From NCBI GenBank assembly GCA_030549335.1, contig CM060190.1, positions 67,160,118 to 67,224,117 on the forward strand: a stretch of 64,000 nucleotides of DNA, read 5' to 3'. Source of the DNA: Pontederia crassipes. Lineage: Eukaryota; Streptophyta; Magnoliopsida; Commelinales; Pontederiaceae. Each line of letters starts with the position of its first letter. The first letter of the stretch is position 1. Positions 9,329-55,555 of this stretch are shown piece by piece. The notes beneath the pieces are model-generated. The model worked only from the letters and a program-made list of their open reading frames with translations, was not told where the DNA came from and ran no database searches. Made by a program: the position numbers and the translations under genes.

Positions 9329-9893
9329 TTTATTACGATTTTATTGTCAACGCGTGATTCTGTGCACTTTTTTAATTGGAGGCTCTTCGAATTATATTTT
9401 TTTATTTTTACCGGAGCGTTTGGTTGCATAATAAGACAACGAATAGATGCTTATTTAAATAAATATTGTCAAACACGTAAGTGAATAAGATTATATCAAT
9501 AAAAATGCATTTTTAATAAAATTATCTTGAAAATCATGATATCATTGAATTTTTTATTCCATCTAAATGATGGAATACATATATTCTCACATTTTCAACG
9601 TTTTATCATTTCTTTTATTTTTTTATAATTTAATCACATATTATTATACTATTATTTTTTATAATAATAATTAAATGTCAATGATTTATAATAAAATATT
9701 TTAATTATAAAATATATTATATTTAAAATTTATTCTGATTGAACCAAACAAAGAGAAGAATAAGAATATTAGAAGAATATTATATTCTTCAGAATAAATT
9801 TTCATTTTCTTATTCTCTAAAATATATTCTATAACAAAACGACCCCTACGTAGAAAACACAAATATTTTATTATTATAAAATAACTAGTCCTA
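9329..9893. other. AT-rich spacer
   Basis: AT-rich sequence between the pICln promoter and the Helitron array. No coding region or RNA gene is supported. Confidence 0.5.
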
Positions 9894-9922
9894 AGTCCCA
9901 TGCGATGCACGGATGAATATTA
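9894..9922 (-). other. Helitron 3' terminus: hairpin plus CTAGT
   Basis: On the minus strand the sequence reads CCGTGCATCGCATGG, then nine bases, then CTAGT, with T as the next host base. This is the hairpin-plus-CTRRT arrangement of Helitron 3' ends. A partly decayed relative (CTAGT preceded by CATGTATCACGG) lies at about 17123-17146, directly against the right edge of the array. Confidence 0.65.
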
Positions 9923-10949
9923 CAAAAATAATATAGAATTAAGATAATATATTTTATAATAATTAAGAAAACTAATTTATTATCATTTAAATATGATAAA
10001 TAAGTTAGTCTATTTTAAATTTTTTTAAATTCAATTTAAATGTATCAAGACCCCAGTTCTTAAATTATTTTTTCTTAAATAATTAACTATTTTCCAAAAA
10101 CAGAATTTTTTTATGATTTGTAAATTTGCATTTATTTTATAAGGAAATTTTAAATTTTATTGGACTCAAATAAAATTCTTTGTTTAAATTATTTCTAAAT
10201 TTTGAAAATAAGGAATGTTTTCTAAAAATTAAATAGTTGTACATTACCTTTTAGAAAGAAAAGATTATTTATTTTAATCATACTCAAATTGATAAAAAAG
10301 AAAAAAGTAATCTGAATTTGACTTAGTCTGAATTATTTATTTTAAATTATTTTTATATTTCGAAAATAGCATGTTCTCTTTTACAACAATATTATTTTTA
10401 TCTATACATTATTCTTAGAAAATAAAATATTATTTATTTCAATCATAACTGCTTATAATAAAAATACTCATAAATTTAATCTTCTTTTATTTCGAAATTT
10501 CAAAAATAAAAAATACTTATCAAATATCATTTAGAAATAAAATAATTTATTTTCGTGTACTCAAATGGATAAAAAGAAAAGATTAATATTAATTTGACTC
10601 AAATTAAAATGTTATTTTATATTATTTTTTTAATTCCGAAAATAACAGATTATTTTTATTTACATAATACCTTTTAGAAATAAAATAATATTTATTTTAA
10701 TCATACTCAGATTGATAAAAAAGAAATTAATATGACACAAATTGAATTATACATTTTAAATTATTTTTTATATTTAAAAAAACAAAATAACATGATTATA
10801 TTTTAAAATGAATAATAAATAATTTCAAATTCTTTTTTAATTCCAGAAAATGACAAATTTTTTAAATAGGAATTATTTTTACTTGTAATCATACTCAAAT
10901 TGATATAAATGAAATATTAAACTTAATTTGACTCAAATTAAATTATTTA

Positions 10950-12990
10950 TTTATAAATTTTCAGTTTGAAAATAACAAATTATTTATTTCTTTTCTTACC
11001 TTATATAACATACTATTATAAGATTATTTATCTTTAATCTGTCATACTCAAATTGATAAAAGAAGAAAGATTAATCTTAATTTCACTCAAATTTAATTAA
11101 TTAAATTTTTAAATTTCGAAAAAAAATACTTACAAAATCGCTTTTAGAAATAAAATAATCTATTTTAATATACTCAAATGGATAAAAAGAAAAGATTAAT
11201 CTTACATTGACTCAAATTAAAATTTTATTTTATATTATTTTTTAATTCCGAAAATAACAAATTATTTTTTACTTACATAATATGTTTTAGAAATATAATA
11301 ATATTTATTTTAATCATACTCAAATTGATAAAAATGTTTAATCTTATATGACTCAAATTGATAAAAAAAAAAAGCTTTATATATTGTTTCCTTATGTAGC
11401 ATACTTTCTATGATTAGTTTTATCTTTTAGATTTAAACAGAATTTGTATTTTATTTTATTTTTAATCCTGAAAATAAAATTTAAACTTTTTAATTATGTT
11501 AATTATTATTATTTGACATGTGTAGTCATGCTAATCTATCATTTAGAAAGAAAACAATTTATTTTAATATACTCAAAAGGATAAAAATAATTACTATTAA
11601 TTTGACTCAAATTAATTTTTATTTTAAATTATTTTTAAGTCCAAAAAAATTTATTTTTTATTTACATAATATGTTTTAGAAAGAAAATAATATTTATTTT
11701 AATCATACTCAAATTGATAAAAAAGAAAAGTTTAATCCTAATATGACTCAAATTGAATTATATATTTTAAATTATTTTTTAAGTTTCTGAAATAACAAAT
11801 TATATTTTAAAAGGAATAATAAATATTTTTCCATTTTTTTGTTTTAGATCATTTTTTAATTCCAGAATATGACAAATTATTTTTAAAATAGAATTATTTT
11901 TACTTGTAATCATACTCAAATTGATATTAATGAAATATTAAATTTAATTTGACTCAAATTAAATAATTTATTTATAAATTTTTAGTTCTGAAAATAACAA
12001 ATTATTTATTTCTTTTCTTACCTTATATAACATACTATTATAAGATTATTTATCTTTAATCTGTCATACTCAAATTGATAAAAGAAGAAAGATTAATCTT
12101 AATTTTACTCAAATTTAATTAATTAAATTTTTAAATTTCGAAAAAAAATACTTACAAAATCGCTTTTAGAAATAAAATAATCTATTTTAATATACTCAAA
12201 TGGATAAAAAGAAAAGATTAATCTTACATTGACTCAAATTAAAATTTTATTTTATATTATTTTTTAATTCCGAAAATAACAAATTATTTTTTACTTACAT
12301 AATATGTTTTAGAAATATAATAATATTTATTTTAATCATACTCAAATTGATAAAAACGTTTAATCTTATATGACTCAAATTGATAAAAAAAAAAAGCTTT
12401 ATATATTGTTTCCTTATGTAGCATACTTTCTATGATTAGTTTTATCTTTTAGATTTAAACAGAATTTGTATTTTATTTTATTTTTAATCCTGAAAATAAA
12501 ATTTAAACTTTTTAATTATGTTAATTATTATTATTTGACATGTGTAGTCATGCTAATCTATCATTTAGAAAGAAAACAATTTATTTTAATATACTCAAAA
12601 GGATAAAAATAATTACTATTAATTTGACTCAAATTAATTTTTATTTTATATTATTTTTAAGTCCAAAAAAAATTATTTTTTACTTACATAATATGTTTTA
12701 GAAAGAAAATAATATTTATTTTAATCATACTCAAATTGATAAAAAGAAAAGTTTAATCCTAATATGACTCAAATTGAATTATATATTTTAAATTATTTTT
12801 TAAGTTTCTGAAATAACAAATTATATTTTAAAAAGAATAATAAATATTTTTCCATTTTATTGTTTTAGATCATTTTTTAATTCCAGAATATGACAAATTA
12901 TTTTTAAAATAGAATTATTTTTACTTGTAATCATACTCAAATTGATATTAATGAAATATTAAATTTAATTTGACTCAAATTAAATTATTT
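10950..12990. repeat. Recent tandem duplication, unit about 1,021 bp
   Basis: Two almost identical units follow each other with an offset of 1,021 bases. For example, landmarks at 11043, 11555 and 11862 recur at 12064, 12576 and 12883. A more diverged third copy of part of the unit begins near 12944. Each unit is itself built from degenerate short modules around TACTCAAATTGATAAAA and TGACTCAAATT. The high identity suggests recent amplification inside the Helitron body. Confidence 0.85.
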
Positions 12991-13569
12991 ATTTATAAAT
13001 TTTTATCTCTGAAAATAACAAATTAGTTCTTTTATTTTTTTACCTTATATAACATACTATTATAAGATTATTTATCTTTACTTTTAATCATACTCAAATT
13101 GATAAAAGAAGAAATATTAATCTTAATTTGACTTCATTTAAATGTTTATTTTACATTATTTTTAAATTTAGAAAATAAAAGAATATTACAAAATATCTTT
13201 TAGAAAGAAAATAATTTATTTTAATATACTCAAATGAATAAAGAGAAAAGATTAATCTTACCTTGACCCGAATTAAAATTTTATTTTATATTATTTTTTA
13301 ACTCCGAAAATAACAAATTATGTTTTACTTACATAATATCTTTAAGAAAGAAAATAATATTTATTTTAATCATACTCAAATTGATAAAAAAAAGGTTTAA
13401 TCTTATATGACTCAAATTGTTAAAAAAAAAATTTATATATTTTTATCTTATGTAACAAACTTTCTATAATTAGTTTTATCTTTTAGATTTAAATTAAATT
13501 TTGATTTTATATTATTTTTCAATTCAGAAATTAAGATTTGAACTTCTTAATTATGTTAATTATTATTAT

Positions 13570-16500
13570 TTGACATCTGTCATCCTTATATTCCGCCACT
13601 TGTCATGCACGAGTTTTATATTATTTTTTATATCCGAAAATAACAAATTATTTTTTTACTTACATAAAATAATATTTATTTTAATCATACTCAAATTGAT
13701 AAAAAAAAAGTTTAATCTTATATGACTCAAATTGATAAAAAGTTTTATATAATGTAACAGACTTTCTATGAATAATTTTATCTTTTAAATTTAAACTGAT
13801 TTTTTATTTTATATTATTTTTTAATTCCAAAAATAAGATTTAAACTTTTAATTATGTTGATTATTATTATTTGACATGTGTCATCGTTATATTACGCCAC
13901 TTGTCGTATTCTCGGCTCTCATGTTATAAAAATAGTATAAATATAAGATATTATATTTATAATAATCAATAAAAATAATCTATTAGTGCTTAAATGTGAT
14001 AAGAAAGTTAGTCTATTTTGAAGATTTTAAAATTCAATTTAAATCTCTCAAGACCCCCACTTTTTAAATTATCTTTTCTTAAATAATTAACTATTTTTAA
14101 TAAAAATAATGTATTAGTGCTTAAATGTGATAAATAAGTTAGTCTATTTTGAAATTTTTAAAATTCAAGTTTAAGACACCCACTTTTTAAATTATTTTTT
14201 CTTAAATAATTAACTCTTTTCCAAAAATAGAATTCTTTTATGATTTTGTAAATTTGTATTTCTTTTATAAGGAAATTTTAATTTGTATTGGACTCAAATA
14301 GAATTCTTTGTTTTAAATTGTTTTTAACTTTTGGAAATAATCAATATCTTCTAAAAATGAAATAGATGTACATTAACATTGATTATTTATTTAATCACAC
14401 TCAAATTAATAAAAAGTAAAAATTAATCTTAATATGACTTGGTTTGAATTATTTATTTTAAACTATTTTTATATTTTGAAACTAATATGTTATCTTTTAA
14501 AAATAATATTATTTTTATCTGTACATTATTCTTAGAAAGAAAATATTATTTATTTCAATTATAACTAAAGAATGTGCTTATAATATATTTCAATTATAAC
14601 TAAAGAATATGCTTATAATAAAAATATACTCATAATTTAATTATTATGATTAGTTGTGTTTAGGACATAAAACTAACGTATATAGATTTATTTATATTGC
14701 GTTCTAAATTTGGAGGATTAAGTTTATGATTAGTTTAAGTTATTCGATAGTATATATTTATATATATTAGGATTATTATTATGTTTATGATTTGAAATAC
14801 GATGCTATTATCATGTTAATATTAGGATACATTGATTATGATTAATTATAAAGGCTATATTTAAGTATTAGTTATATTTAGGAACACAAATTAACATAAC
14901 AAAATCGAAAATCATATTTCTAACCAAATTAGATTTATTTTCTATATTTAATTTATTATAAGCCTACGACACAAATCTTATCTAATATTTTATATATTAG
15001 GATTTTAATTATTTTAAAATTTTAAATTTGAATATTAATTTTATCTGATGACACGTCTAGTATATATTAAGATTATGATTAAAATTTTAAATAGATTAGG
15101 ACTTTTAAACGAAAATCCTATTCCTAATCAAATTAAATTTATTTTCTATATTTAATTTATTACCAACTTTATTATAAGATTTATATATATATATCCTACG
15201 ATACAAATCTTATCTAATATTTTATTATTTTAAATATATTTTAAATTTTAAATTTGAATATTAATTTTATCATCTAGTATACATTAGGATTATGATTAAA
15301 ATTTTAAATAGATTAGGACTCTTAGTTTGAGTAAACTTAAAAATTAGAATAAATTAGTTTGAGTAATAAACCACTTGTCTTGTTCTCTTTTAGAACAATA
15401 TTAATATTAATATTAATACTCAAATGGATAAAAAAGAACAGATTAATATTAATTTGACTCAAACTAATTTTTATTTTATATTATTTTTTAAGTTCGAAAA
15501 TAACAAATTATTTTTTACTTACATAATATCTTTTAGAAAGAAAATAATATTTATTTTAATCATACTCAGATTGATAAAAAGAAAAGTTTAATCTTAATAT
15601 GACTCAAATTGAATTATATATTTTAAGTTATTTTTTAAAATTTCTGAAATAACAAATTATATTTTAAAAGAAATAATAAATAATTTTAAATTATTTGTTT
15701 TAAATCATTTTTAATTCCAGAAAATGACAAATTATTTTTTAAATAGGAATTATTTTTACTTGTACTCATACTCAAATTGATATTAATGAAATATTAAACT
15801 TAATTTGACTCAAATTAAATTATTTATTTATAAATATTTAGTTCTGAAAATAACAAATTAGTTCTTTTACTTTTTTTACATTATATAACATACTATTATA
15901 AGATTATTTATCTTTACTTTTAAACATACTCAAATTGATAAAAGAAGAAATATTAATCTTAATTTGAGTTAATTTAATTTTTTATTTTACATTATTTTTA
16001 AATTTAGGAAATAAAAGAATACTTACAAAAATATTTTAGAAGGAAAATAAATTATTTTAATATACCCAAAGGATAAAAATAAAAGATTAATGTTAACTTG
16101 ACTCAAATTAAAATTTTATTTTATATTATTTTTTAATTCCGAAAATAAAAAAATATTTTTTACTTACATAATATCTTTTAGAAATAAAATAATATTTATT
16201 TTAATCGTACTCAAATTAATAAAAAAAAGTTTAATCTTATATGACTCAAATTGATAAAAAAAAAGTTTAATCATACTAAAATAATACTTTCTATGATTAA
16301 TTTTATCTTTGAAATTTAAACTGAATTTTTATTTTATATTATTTCTAATTCAGAAAATAAGATTTAAAGTTCTTAATTATGTTAATTATTATTATTTGAC
16401 ATGTGCCATCGTTATATTCCGCCACTTGTCATGCATGAGTTTTATATTATTTTTTAAATCCAAAAATAACAAATTATTTTTTACTTACATAATATCTTTT

Positions 16501-17094
16501 AGAAAGAAAATAATATTTATTTTAATCATACTCAAATTGATATAAAAAAAGTTTAATCTCATATGACTCAAATTGATAAAAAAAAAAGTTTTATATATTG
16601 TTACCTTATGTAACAAACTTTCTATCATTTGTTTTATTTTTTAGATTTAAACTGATTTTTTATTTTATATTATTTTTTAATTACGTAAATAAGATTTGAA
16701 TTTCTTAATTATGTTTATTATTATTATTTGACATGTGCCGTTATTATATTCTGCCACTTGTCGTGCATGCATTTTATATTATTTTATAAATCCAAAATAA
16801 CAAATTATTTTTTACTTACGTAATATCTTTTAGAAAGAAAATAATATTTATTTTAATCATACTCAAATTGATAAAAAAAAATGTTTAATCTTTTATGACT
16901 CAAATTGATAAAAAAAAGTTTTATATATTGTTACCTAACAAACTTTCTATGATTAGTTTTATCTTATAGATTTAAATTAAATTTTTATTTTATATTATTT
17001 TTTAATTATTTAAATTTTTAATTGTGTTAATTATTATTATTTTACATGTGTCATCGTTATATTACGCCACTTGTCGCGCTCTTGGCTCTCATGC
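13570..17094 (-). repeat. Five copies of a GC-richer 5'-end module
   Basis: A module with GACATGTG, CGTTATATT and CGCCACTTGTC occurs at about 13570-13612, 13871-13923, 16396-16439, 16728-16770 and 17041-17094. Only the second and fifth copies continue into GGCTCTCATG as at a full 5' end; the others run back into AT-rich repeat. The same order of modules recurs around 13.0-13.7 kb and 15.8-16.6 kb, showing a larger duplication with an offset of about 2.8 kb. Confidence 0.75.
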
Positions 17095-17122
17095 TTTTAC
17101 CTCACTTTTTTATATATATAGA

Positions 17123-19659
17123 CTAGTCTAAGAACCGTGATACATGATTCTTATAAAATATGTTAATATAAATTTAAAAAGTAATATATTAACAAAATTG
17201 AACTTCATTAATTTAGGTCAAATTATGAAATACTTCTCTATAAACTATATTCTTTACTTCATTTCTTAAGACACATAAAATTGTATTTGTGAAAATATAA
17301 TTTTTTTTTAAAAAATAATATCACATGAGATAATCATTGACATTGATCTTTTTTAATATCATTGTAAAAAATATAAAATTATTTACGTTAAAATTTGAAT
17401 AGTCCTAATATATCGGATGAAGTCATTGCCATTTTTGGGAGAATATATTTTCTCCAACTTTATTTCCTAATAATTCTTTACCTGATGTAACCAAAATAAA
17501 ACTTTGAATAAAATATCTATTATTTTTTCCTCTCATATTCAATTTTTTATTTCATATAATTTTTAGAGAAAATTTTACACATGTTAGTTCTTTGCTTCTA
17601 GGTATAATTTATTTGTCTCAAACTAACATATAAATATTGATTCATTTATGTTTAGTCTATTAGCAACAATGTCGATGAGATCATTGTTAGATAATATAAT
17701 AGTTTGTTCGTTTGATAAATGGAACTCTAGTTTCTGAACCAGATGTCTTTTATGGTGAGTAAAATAAGTCAAAAATTTTCAAACTTCACTAAACGATATA
17801 TATCGACGATTATAATAGGTATTTATCTCATCAGCAACATTTGATGAATCTTTCTTTTGAGCACTTTTAGAAAAACTAATAGTAATACAATCAAGTCCTT
17901 TGTTAACATATTTAAATAAATATATTATGAATCTTCATTGGTTGCAATATTCTATATTAATATGAGCATCATACTTCAATAATAAGAGTCGATTATTGGA
18001 AGAAAAGCAATAAAATAAATATTATTATCTTAAATTGAGCTCGTATCACATTGTAGATGTTTATTTTAAGCCATCTAATGTTTACGAGATAATCCAGATA
18101 GATTATCAGTTATTTTATTTAAAATTTTCAGGACCCATCGTATTATCTCATTTGGCTGTAACTGATTATCGGTAATTTTAATTGCTCTAATAATCTTAAT
18201 TACCACATCACTGATAATCCAAATAGCAGGCAGGGGAGGTGGCTTTCCTGCAGTTGCTTAACATGCTTTTGACAAAAATATCCATTCCATAAAACTTTTA
18301 ATTTCAATATTTTATTATTAAATAAATATCATTTAACTGCATCTCTTTTATTATTTGAATCTTTTATAAATAACTCTTATTTTTTCACTCATCTTATTTT
18401 ATCTATATTCGCTTTTGTATTTTTTATCTTTATTTATTTAGATACTATATCATGAGCATGTAAAATAATTTTTAAAGATATTTTGGTAATTTGCTCACTA
18501 ACTATTTTAGCCATTATTTATATTATCAATACTTGCCAAGCACTGTAATGTGATATTATCGATAATTTAAATAGTGATAATCTTTTTAAATATTGATCTA
18601 AATTATCAGTTAATTAAATCGGTAATGCATCAAATGATCTCTTAACTTATATAAGGTGGTTATCCAAAAGTAACTATATATTGTTAACAAAGTAAAATCA
18701 TATTTCTTCACCTAACCAATATAAGGTGATCATCCAAAAGTTACTACACAATATAAACAAAGTAAAACAGCTCCAATAGCATAACAAAAAAGGACGACTA
18801 TGCAAAGCTCATTATTACATATGGTCACATTGATTGTTTATACATTTTCATAAAAGAAATATAAAATATTACTGGTAATATTATTTTTAAAAGTTTGATT
18901 TTAAATAATGTCTTTTGTGCATTTACTCTGTAGTTGATTTTGTAAGTAGTTTGACCATATTATTATAGCATAGAAATTTTCTTTAGAGAAAAAATAAAAT
19001 AATATATCAAATAATGTTATAAATATAGAAGCAATATGTATGCATAAAGTTCTATGCAGCTTAAGGAAAAAATAAGAACATAATACTATAGGAGTAAGTA
19101 AAATTTTACTACAAATAAAAAAATAAAAATTTATGTTTTCACCTCTAGAGAATATTGTTTGAAATTTTCATTCCGAAGCTTTTCACAATATTACAAGAAA
19201 AATATCTTTAAATTTCTTTGAAATTGGTTTGATTAATATTTCCATAGTATTACATTATTTAAATCATAATGAAAAAATACTATATACATATGTGTGCGTC
19301 TATGTGTATACAAATATAGGAACAATGGTTTATCATTATTGTTAATTTATAAACCGATTTAAAAAATTATTAATCATGTGACATATACTATTTCTATTTT
19401 TATTTTCTTTAGAAATACATTTTCTTCATTTAATTTGATAAAATACTTATGCTCAAATTGAATTAACTTTTCTCAGTAAATAATTATTATATATATATTT
19501 AAGAGTTACTAAATTTTTTTATAGCAATTAGAAGTGATCAATGGGTCATACTACTTTAACAAAGACATATTGAATGGATATGAAGAAAATGGCAACATTT
19601 AAATTATATTGAAAGGAGGATTTCAAAAAGGGTGGTGAATTGTATTAAACACATTGTTT

Positions 19660-19739
<80 letters not shown>

Positions 19740-20377: not shown

Positions 20378-21026
20378 GGGATAAATGCACTTCCAAAGTG
20401 CCCATTCTCTCGAGGGATGCGGAGCATATCACAACCATACATTTATCATCTGATGGCCCATGTTCATCTTCACCGAAAGGTGACTCACGAGCCACCTTCT
20501 TCCCCCCTTAGCTTCCTCTCCCTCGGCTTCTGTCTAAGGTCGAATGAAGCATGGGAAGGTCTACGGACAGACCTTCATTGGCGACATCATTTTCTCCGGA
20601 CAGAGCTCACCACCTTGTGGGGTTGCCATTCTCCCCCTTCCTCTCGTCGAACAAAGCAGCCACGGAGGAATGGTTAACGATGAGCGAGGTGCAGCGTAGG
20701 GGATCGATCGTGAGCGGGGGAAGAAGATGGCGTAGGGATGGATCTTCGGAGAAGGGCGAATGAAGCATATGCGGAGGAATGACGAACGAGGCGTGGGGGT
20801 GGGTGGGGATGGCGCAGGGGATCAATCATCGACGAAGGGCAAACGAAGCAAACCTGAAGGAACGACGAACGAAGCGTGGCTCATGAACCGATCACAAAGA
20901 TGCTGTAGGGAATGATCACAAGTAGGGGGAAGACGAACATCCACCAACCATAATATTAAAAGTGAACGGTTGTGATCTGCTCTGCATCCCTCGAGAGAAT
21001 GGACGCTCCGAAGGTGCATTTATTCA
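20378..21026. mobile_element. Mutator-like non-autonomous element with long terminal inverted repeats
   Basis: The two ends are inverted copies of each other over roughly 70-100 bases. Both arms contain ATAAATGCAC followed by the shared core CCATTCTCTCGAGGGATGC and then ATCACAACC. The interior of about 450 bases is much more GC-rich than its surroundings. It consists of degenerate repeats around GAACGAAGC-GGG-ATGGCG blocks, with no recognisable protein. Long inverted repeats, a GC-rich interior and no transposase suggest a Mutator-like (possibly Pack-MULE) element. Flanks are TATATA runs on both sides, so a 9-bp target duplication is possible but cannot be proved. A foldback element of another family is the alternative. 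Confidence 0.65.
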
Positions 21027-54895: not shown

Positions 54896-55555
54896 ATGAA
54901 GCTCGTGTGGTGTCCGGACTCTGCTTCCAAGGCCTACGTCGACGCCGTCAAGTGTCTCGTCGACCTCCCGGAGACCAACGTCGCCGAGCTCATCTCCGCC
55001 ATGGCCGGCGGATGGAAGGTTCGGCTCATCGTCGAGGCCTGGTCGCGCGAGGACGGCGCCGCCACCGGACTCGGACTGCGCTCCGTCGCCAGGCAGGCCG
55101 AGGACGCGCGCCATGTGTGCGTCGTCCCCGACGAGCAGGCGGCCGCCGAGTACGCGGAGGCCATGCGGCGCGCGGGGGAGCCCGTGGCGCTGGCGCCGGA
55201 GTTCTCGGTGGTGGTCGGCGAGGCCGAGGAGGCGATGCGGGATCTGGAGGGCGTGGACATGCTCGTGGTGGACCTCCGGCGGCGGGACGCCGGGACGGTG
55301 CTGAGGGAGGCGCGGCCGGGGCCGCGGGGGATGGTGGTGGTCTGCAAGGGCGCGGGGAAGGGGAGGCGGGGGTGCGCCGCGGCGGCGCTGGGCGCGGGGC
55401 GGAGGGTGGTGCGCTCGACGTTCCTGCCCATCGGGAGCGGCGTCGAGGTGCTGCACGTCGGGGTCGGCAAGGGGCCGAGCGTTGGCGGCGGCCGGGCTCG
55501 GTGGATCAGGCACGTGAACCAGCACACCAAGGAGGAGCACGTCTTCCGGCGGTGA
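54896..55555 (+). CDS. DUF1442 family protein
   Basis: Intact single-exon frame of 219 residues. The family is plant-specific, with a predicted Rossmann/methyltransferase-like fold and no established function. The N-terminus MKLVWCPDSASKAYVDAVK is the family start and fixes the initiation codon. Other landmarks are AELISAMAGGWKVRLIVEAW (about 31-50), ARHVCVVP (about 71-78), VDMLVVDLRRRD (about 119-130), GMVVVCKG (about 145-152), STFLPIGSGVEVLHVGVG (about 174-191) and the end WIRHVNQHTKEEHVFRR. Third codon positions are nearly all G or C, so other frames are also open on both strands; those are shadows. A broken relative lies 4.5 kb downstream on the same strand. No signal peptide or membrane segment is evident. 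Confidence 0.92.
   Translation: MKLVWCPDSASKAYVDAVKCLVDLPETNVAELISAMAGGWKVRLIVEAWSREDGAATGLGLRSVARQAEDARHVCVVPDEQAAAEYAEAMRRAGEPVALAPEFSVVVGEAEEAMRDLEGVDMLVVDLRRRDAGTVLREARPGPRGMVVVCKGAGKGRRGCAAAALGAGRRVVRSTFLPIGSGVEVLHVGVGKGPSVGGGRARWIRHVNQHTKEEHVFRR

Follow-up and report, generated by a model that had tools for sequence, protein, structure and literature searches.

Two similar Helitron bodies lying head to tail, with the end of another Helitron abutting them, might have been replicated in tandem or might have arrived separately, and this is the question raised by a locus of Pontederia crassipes. The window, by which we mean the whole stretch of 64,000 nt analysed (assembly GCA_030549335.1, contig CM060190.1, forward-strand positions 67,160,118 to 67,224,117), holds on its minus strand a Helitron-type element that starts with TCTATATATATAAAAAAGTGAGG at 17122 and ends with CATCCGTGCATCGCATGGGACTTAGGACTAG at 9885, followed by a T. 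It is composed of two units of one family, here termed A (at the 5' side) and B (at the 3' side). An earlier note, made from the sequence alone, had described the locus as a head-to-tail array and inferred rolling-circle read-through as its cause. We find no support for this, as the CTAG upstream of A is foreign and A and B differ in the kinship of their 3' regions, the 5' modules being less clear on the point. The explanation we favour, with moderate confidence, is that A and B inserted independently, beside an unrelated, decayed Helitron, and were then joined by a small deletion.

A non-autonomous Helitron and its sibling copies

The termini are those by which canonical plant Helitrons are recognised, a 5' TC (at 17122-17121) and a 3' CTRR (here CTAG), both in the window and in sibling copies. 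The 5' end, TCTATATATA, begins at 17122, just where the earlier note had placed it; the 3' hairpin and CTAG that it described are also real, but the CTAG occupies 9888-9885 rather than 9898-9894, a displacement of about ten bases. The base 5' of the TC of unit A is a G in the window, where another Helitron adjoins. The body of the element is around 15-18% GC and made of degenerate repeats, and no transposase of its own was found, none of the seven open reading frames of at least 160 amino acids in the window lying inside 9885-17122. The element is an ordinary non-autonomous Helitron, as had been proposed, and the identification is supported by single-unit siblings with both of the same termini. 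No further copy of the family was detected elsewhere in the window at an expectation value (E) of 1e-15. A scan of the window for other hairpin-plus-CTAG ends returned two weak matches without recovering the imperfect stems of the element itself; its result was not used.

Siblings were sought in the species' own genome (1.13 Gb in 43 contigs) with a query of 407 bases running inward from 9894. From 1303 candidates this gave 40 scored matches, counting that of the window itself; these were dispersed over many contigs, and both termini were found to be common to siblings. Eight further short matches to the query fall in internal repeats. Twenty of the 39 other copies were fetched as 10 kb pieces, with seven of which the short loci L002-L008 coincide, and these were counted once. 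The 3' consensus of the siblings is CATCCGTGCATCGCACGGGATTTAGGACTAG, followed by T. A script located the 3' terminus in 18 of the 20, as GACTAG in 16 and GACTAA in two (L012 and L015), and T follows in 17 of these 18, G in L011. The remaining two were read by eye or are degraded: L010 ends in CTAG, and the hairpin of L019 is damaged. Inspection by eye recognised the GC-rich 3' hairpin, CCGTGCATCGCACGGG or a near variant, in 17 of the 20 loci, with damage in L010, L019 and L022.

At the 5' side, a TC start is readable in seven of the 20 siblings (L011, L012, L014, L022, L023, L024 and L028). All seven have an A before the TC and, judged from the flanks of each copy, no target duplication. The check that the earlier note had suggested, a search of the genome for single-unit copies inserted between A and T, was thus borne out, the siblings being single units of the form A/TC...CTAG/T, with no target duplication in the seven copies tested. 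Amongst the other 13, a TA run forms the start of eight (in L015 it contains a TC), L009 has a different start, a foreign Helitron end precedes L021 and L026, and L016 and L020 are without a 5' match. Measured from the outermost 5' motif, the 3' end lies between around 1.7 kb (L018) and 7.5 kb (L026, a nested minus-strand copy included) away.

Kinship of the two units and the joint between them

That the locus contains two homologous bodies in the same orientation was confirmed by self-alignment. The repeat zones are 88.6% identical over 1362 columns (12591-13907 against 15416-16764), the 3' zones 84.1% identical over 491 columns (9963-10450 against 14097-14566), and a third pair of segments 84.4% identical over 179 columns (9917-10093 against 13921-14097). 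The E values, all 7e-45 or lower, are overstated, as low-complexity filtering was switched off and the DNA there is about 15% GC; it is because of the lengths of the alignments and their collinearity that the homology of A and B is taken to be beyond chance. The segment of A that is without a long counterpart in B has an internal repeat of its own (14946-15107 against 15179-15324, 83.5% identical).

Judged by their 3' regions, A and B differ both in their closest relatives and in the length of their terminal branches. For B, identity in this region is 93.1-95.4% with every one of the 20 siblings, as against 85.6% with A. IQ-TREE was run on the 3' region under two treatments, which differ in which copy of a 131-base internal duplicate of A was dropped; B grouped with L022 in both (support 99/96 and 100/97), and the terminal branch of A measured 0.12 or 0.11, compared with 0.026 for B. 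An earlier FastTree analysis, in which the 131-base duplication was retained, gave A a branch of 0.26. Forcing A and B into a single clade costs 10.2 or 16.8 log units under the two treatments, with approximately unbiased (AU) test values of p-AU 0.079 or 0.002 respectively. In a tree of 18 hand-picked 5' modules, B was placed with L022b, with a Shimodaira-Hasegawa-like (SH-like) support of 0.876. Taken together, the kinship evidence appears to lean against a common recent origin of A and B.

The joint between the units lies at 13924/13923. The earlier note had put it at about 13925, with a lost 3' terminus; the position was essentially correct, but both ends have been lost and not the 3' end only. 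Unit A halts at TATTTTTATAA and unit B opens at CATGAGAGCC; by comparison with the siblings, approximately 35 bases of the 3' terminus of A and 28 of the 5' terminus of B are gone. The precise CTAG/TC joint of a tandem array is not present between A and B, both termini being absent. Nor did any of the 20 fetched loci yield a same-strand joint of a 3'-terminal zone to a 5' module: the joint is crossed by five alignments, from L012 (two), L013, L024 and L027, but we read their AT-rich first half as a match to TA runs. The last 255 of the 566 columns of the 3' region match only at 3' ends in the 20 loci, save for minus-strand pieces in L026.

Rolling-circle transposition driven by a RepHel transposase is established for Helitrons generally. 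Two copies of this AT-rich non-autonomous family would each have been inserted by that route, with the transposase acting in trans, at different times but nearby and in the same orientation. A deletion, amounting to around 63 bases relative to the siblings plus any intervening host DNA, would then have fused the 3' subterminal region of A to the 5' subterminal region of B, with a third, unrelated coding Helitron, now decayed, ending exactly at the 5' border of A.

Several observations weigh against independent insertion. A clade of A and B is rejected under one treatment (p-AU 0.002) and not under the other (0.079). The 5' module of B is 89.2% identical to that of A, which equals its 89.2% identity to L022b, and five of the 18 modules, those of A, B, L010b, L022 and L022b, cluster separately from the remaining 13 (support 1.000). 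The 20 siblings come from among the best matches to the 3' end of B, a sample that favours B-like copies and leaves the kin of A unsampled. An insertion of B inside A was also considered and rejected: the 40 bases after the CTAG of B, compared by eye, do not contain the missing 3' piece of A. Since the lost end of A is not to be found behind B, a deletion has to be added to the explanation.

An old rolling-circle read-through, or a circular concatemer, might instead have produced an A-B dimer, the CTAG/TC joint of which was later deleted and the halves of which diverged unequally. The homology and common orientation of the two bodies are as this would predict, the missing 63 or so bases coincide exactly with the expected position of such a joint, and A and B share a group in the tree of 5' modules; moreover, tandem Helitrons have been reported in bats, plants and other organisms (PMC5876387, PMC5148889). 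However, a single event predicts two units equally old and more closely related to each other than to any other copy, whereas the 3' region of B is closer to all 20 siblings than to A and groups with L022. The joint of 3' and 5' subterminal regions also does not recur in the fetched loci, where we read the five spanning alignments as matches of their AT-rich half to TA runs. We therefore regard a dimer as a rather improbable origin of the pair, albeit one with several points in its favour.

Internal repeats and repeated 5' ends

The internal amplification reported by the earlier note is real, and takes the form of a recent tandem duplication inside unit B with a period of 1022 bases: 10955-11976 and 11977-12998 are identical in 1008 of 1021 columns, with two gaps (98.73%). 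Internal repeats are a habit of the family. Complete tandem 5' ends together with a single 3' end are found in L011 (three), L012 (four), L015 (two) and L019 (two), whilst L010 has six internal modules behind its 5' end, spaced 670-679 bases apart. Internal 5' modules that start at or near (C)ATGAGAGCC are present in L010, L014, L021, L022 and L023.

The many internal repeats and such modules could provide the substrate for ectopic or unequal recombination, or for template switching, that fused pieces of two copies, with the joint between A and B being another repeat boundary. The internal modules of those five loci, and the full 5' ends repeated in the four loci named before them, are consistent with this. 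It nevertheless seems unlikely, more so than a dimer, as the confinement of the last 255 columns of the 3' region to 3' ends, outside the minus-strand pieces of L026, sets the joint apart from an ordinary repeat boundary.

The neighbouring Helitron and comparable systems

A second CTAG with a decayed hairpin does lie at the 5' border, as had been described, its CTAG at 17126-17123 immediately preceding the TC of unit A; its assignment to the same array did not hold. The region 17123-19700 was compared with the 20 loci with the low-complexity filter on, the unfiltered version being swamped by TA runs, and gave a single 40-base match (E 4e-5). Further upstream is a transposase remnant in the same direction as A, which in a search of solved structures matches residues 706-831 of Helraiser 7lcc_A (E 1.8e-14); Pfam assigned it no family at E 0.01. 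As the upstream body is unlike the family and carries a RepHel remnant, we interpret it as a coding Helitron, now decayed, that runs in the direction of A and ends there. That all three Helitrons form one continuous tandem array, the view of the earlier note, is hence very improbable: CTAG does stand directly before TC at 17123/17122, and the two 3' hairpins look alike, but the upstream body has no similarity to the family loci and contains the remains of a transposase. Similar 3' hairpins are common among plant Helitrons.

Independent insertion would accord with a reported preference of Helitrons for sites near other Helitrons (PMC3288121), and with G/T junctions between unrelated Helitrons in maize, for which consecutive insertions are the explanation given (PMC2267711). 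Since an A precedes the TC in all seven readable starts, the A/TC border of this family would offer other Helitrons a canonical target. Two of the 20 loci, L021 and L026, likewise have the 3' end of a foreign Helitron directly against the 5' end of the family.

In these two loci, a hairpin of the CCGCGCATCGCGCGGG type marks the foreign 3' end that adjoins the family's TATATATAAAAG at around 4850-4900 of L021 and 1840-1890 of L026 (in the sense of the element, L026 being reverse-complemented). The foreign element in L021 opens with a similar TA run and a GCAGAGGTA motif; its 5' end was seen in L021 and not found in L026. Both loci share the joint of foreign CTAG to TATATATAAAAG and homologous upstream DNA, and differ in the DNA after the 3' CTAG. 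It is conceivable, though we think it doubtful, that head-to-tail pairs of different Helitrons in this genome, such as those of L021, L026 and the window, can move as a composite through bypass of the first terminator. The foreign parts of L021 and L026 are 79.5% and 85.6% identical in two long pieces, as against 93.9% over 635 columns of the adjoining family part, and this unequal divergence favours separate insertions into the same TA-rich target over a mobile composite.

The features of the locus are collected in Table 1. Elsewhere in the window, a GC-rich element of about 600 bases at around 20381-21023 has terminal inverted repeats (ATTCTCTCGAGGGATGC..., extending into AAATGCAC...) and resembles a terminal inverted repeat (TIR) element, and an open frame of 219 amino acids at 54896-55555 on the plus strand has a full-length match to DUF1442 (E 2e-63).

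Table 1. Features of the Helitron locus, in window coordinates
Feature	Position	Strand	Basis
Compound of two units (A at 5', B at 3') of one non-autonomous Helitron family	9885..17122	-	Termini and self-alignment
Helitron 3' terminus: hairpin CCGTGCATCGCATGGG, then CTAG (9888-9885); host T at 9884	9885..9915	-	
Unit B, probably the younger; 3' end intact, first ~28 bases of 5' end missing	9885..13923	-	
Recent internal tandem duplication in unit B, period 1022	10955..12998	-	98.73% identical
Middle junction: 3' subterminal of A joined to 5' subterminal of B; ~63 bases across both termini absent	13923..13924	-	
Unit A, probably the older; 5' end intact, last ~35 bases lost	13924..17122	-	
Stretch of unit A to which B has no long counterpart	14640..15380 (limits approximate)	-	Matches of at most 66 bases in the 20 loci
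Helitron 5' terminus TCTATATATATAAAAAAGTGAGGTAAAAGC	17093..17122	-	Window and sibling loci
3' end of the unrelated, decayed neighbour: degenerate hairpin and CTAG (17126-17123), abutting the TC of unit A	17123..17155	-	
Broken RepHel transposase remnant of the neighbour, 133 codons with three stops	17587..17985	-	Match to Helraiser 7lcc_A

A CTAG/TC joint and two like bodies are not sufficient to infer tandem replication by a rolling circle; that question is decided by the age of the units, their kinship and the identity of the neighbour. With its repeated 5' regions, and a TA-rich 5' end next to which other Helitrons occur, the family could serve the study of how Helitrons target one another.

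Tandem, adjacent and nested Helitrons have all been described previously, and the locus is an unexceptional example of a pattern already known. The border between the decayed Helitron and unit A is like that of the adjacent Helitrons at maize r1 (AF466202; PMC2267711), where CTAG is directly followed by TC, the contents are unrelated and consecutive insertions are the account offered. It is unlike the r1 case as there set out in that here a decayed RepHel element lies upstream and a fused pair of non-autonomous copies downstream. Head-to-tail tandems of one Helitron family are described from bats and plant centromeres (Pritham and Feschotte; Xiong, Dooner and Du 2016), and attributed to rolling-circle amplification or a circular intermediate. 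Units A and B resemble these in being head-to-tail members of one family, but are only two in number, differ in their 3' kinship and lack an intact junction. A single 3' end with several 5' ends is a feature described for FoHelis (PMC5148889), and maize Helitrons with multiple termini are reported to derive from nested elements (PMC3288121). The several 5' ends and single 3' end of L011, L012, L015 and L019 are similar to both; in contrast to the arrangements described in those accounts, the repeats of this family also include shorter internal modules that are without the outermost 25 or so bases.

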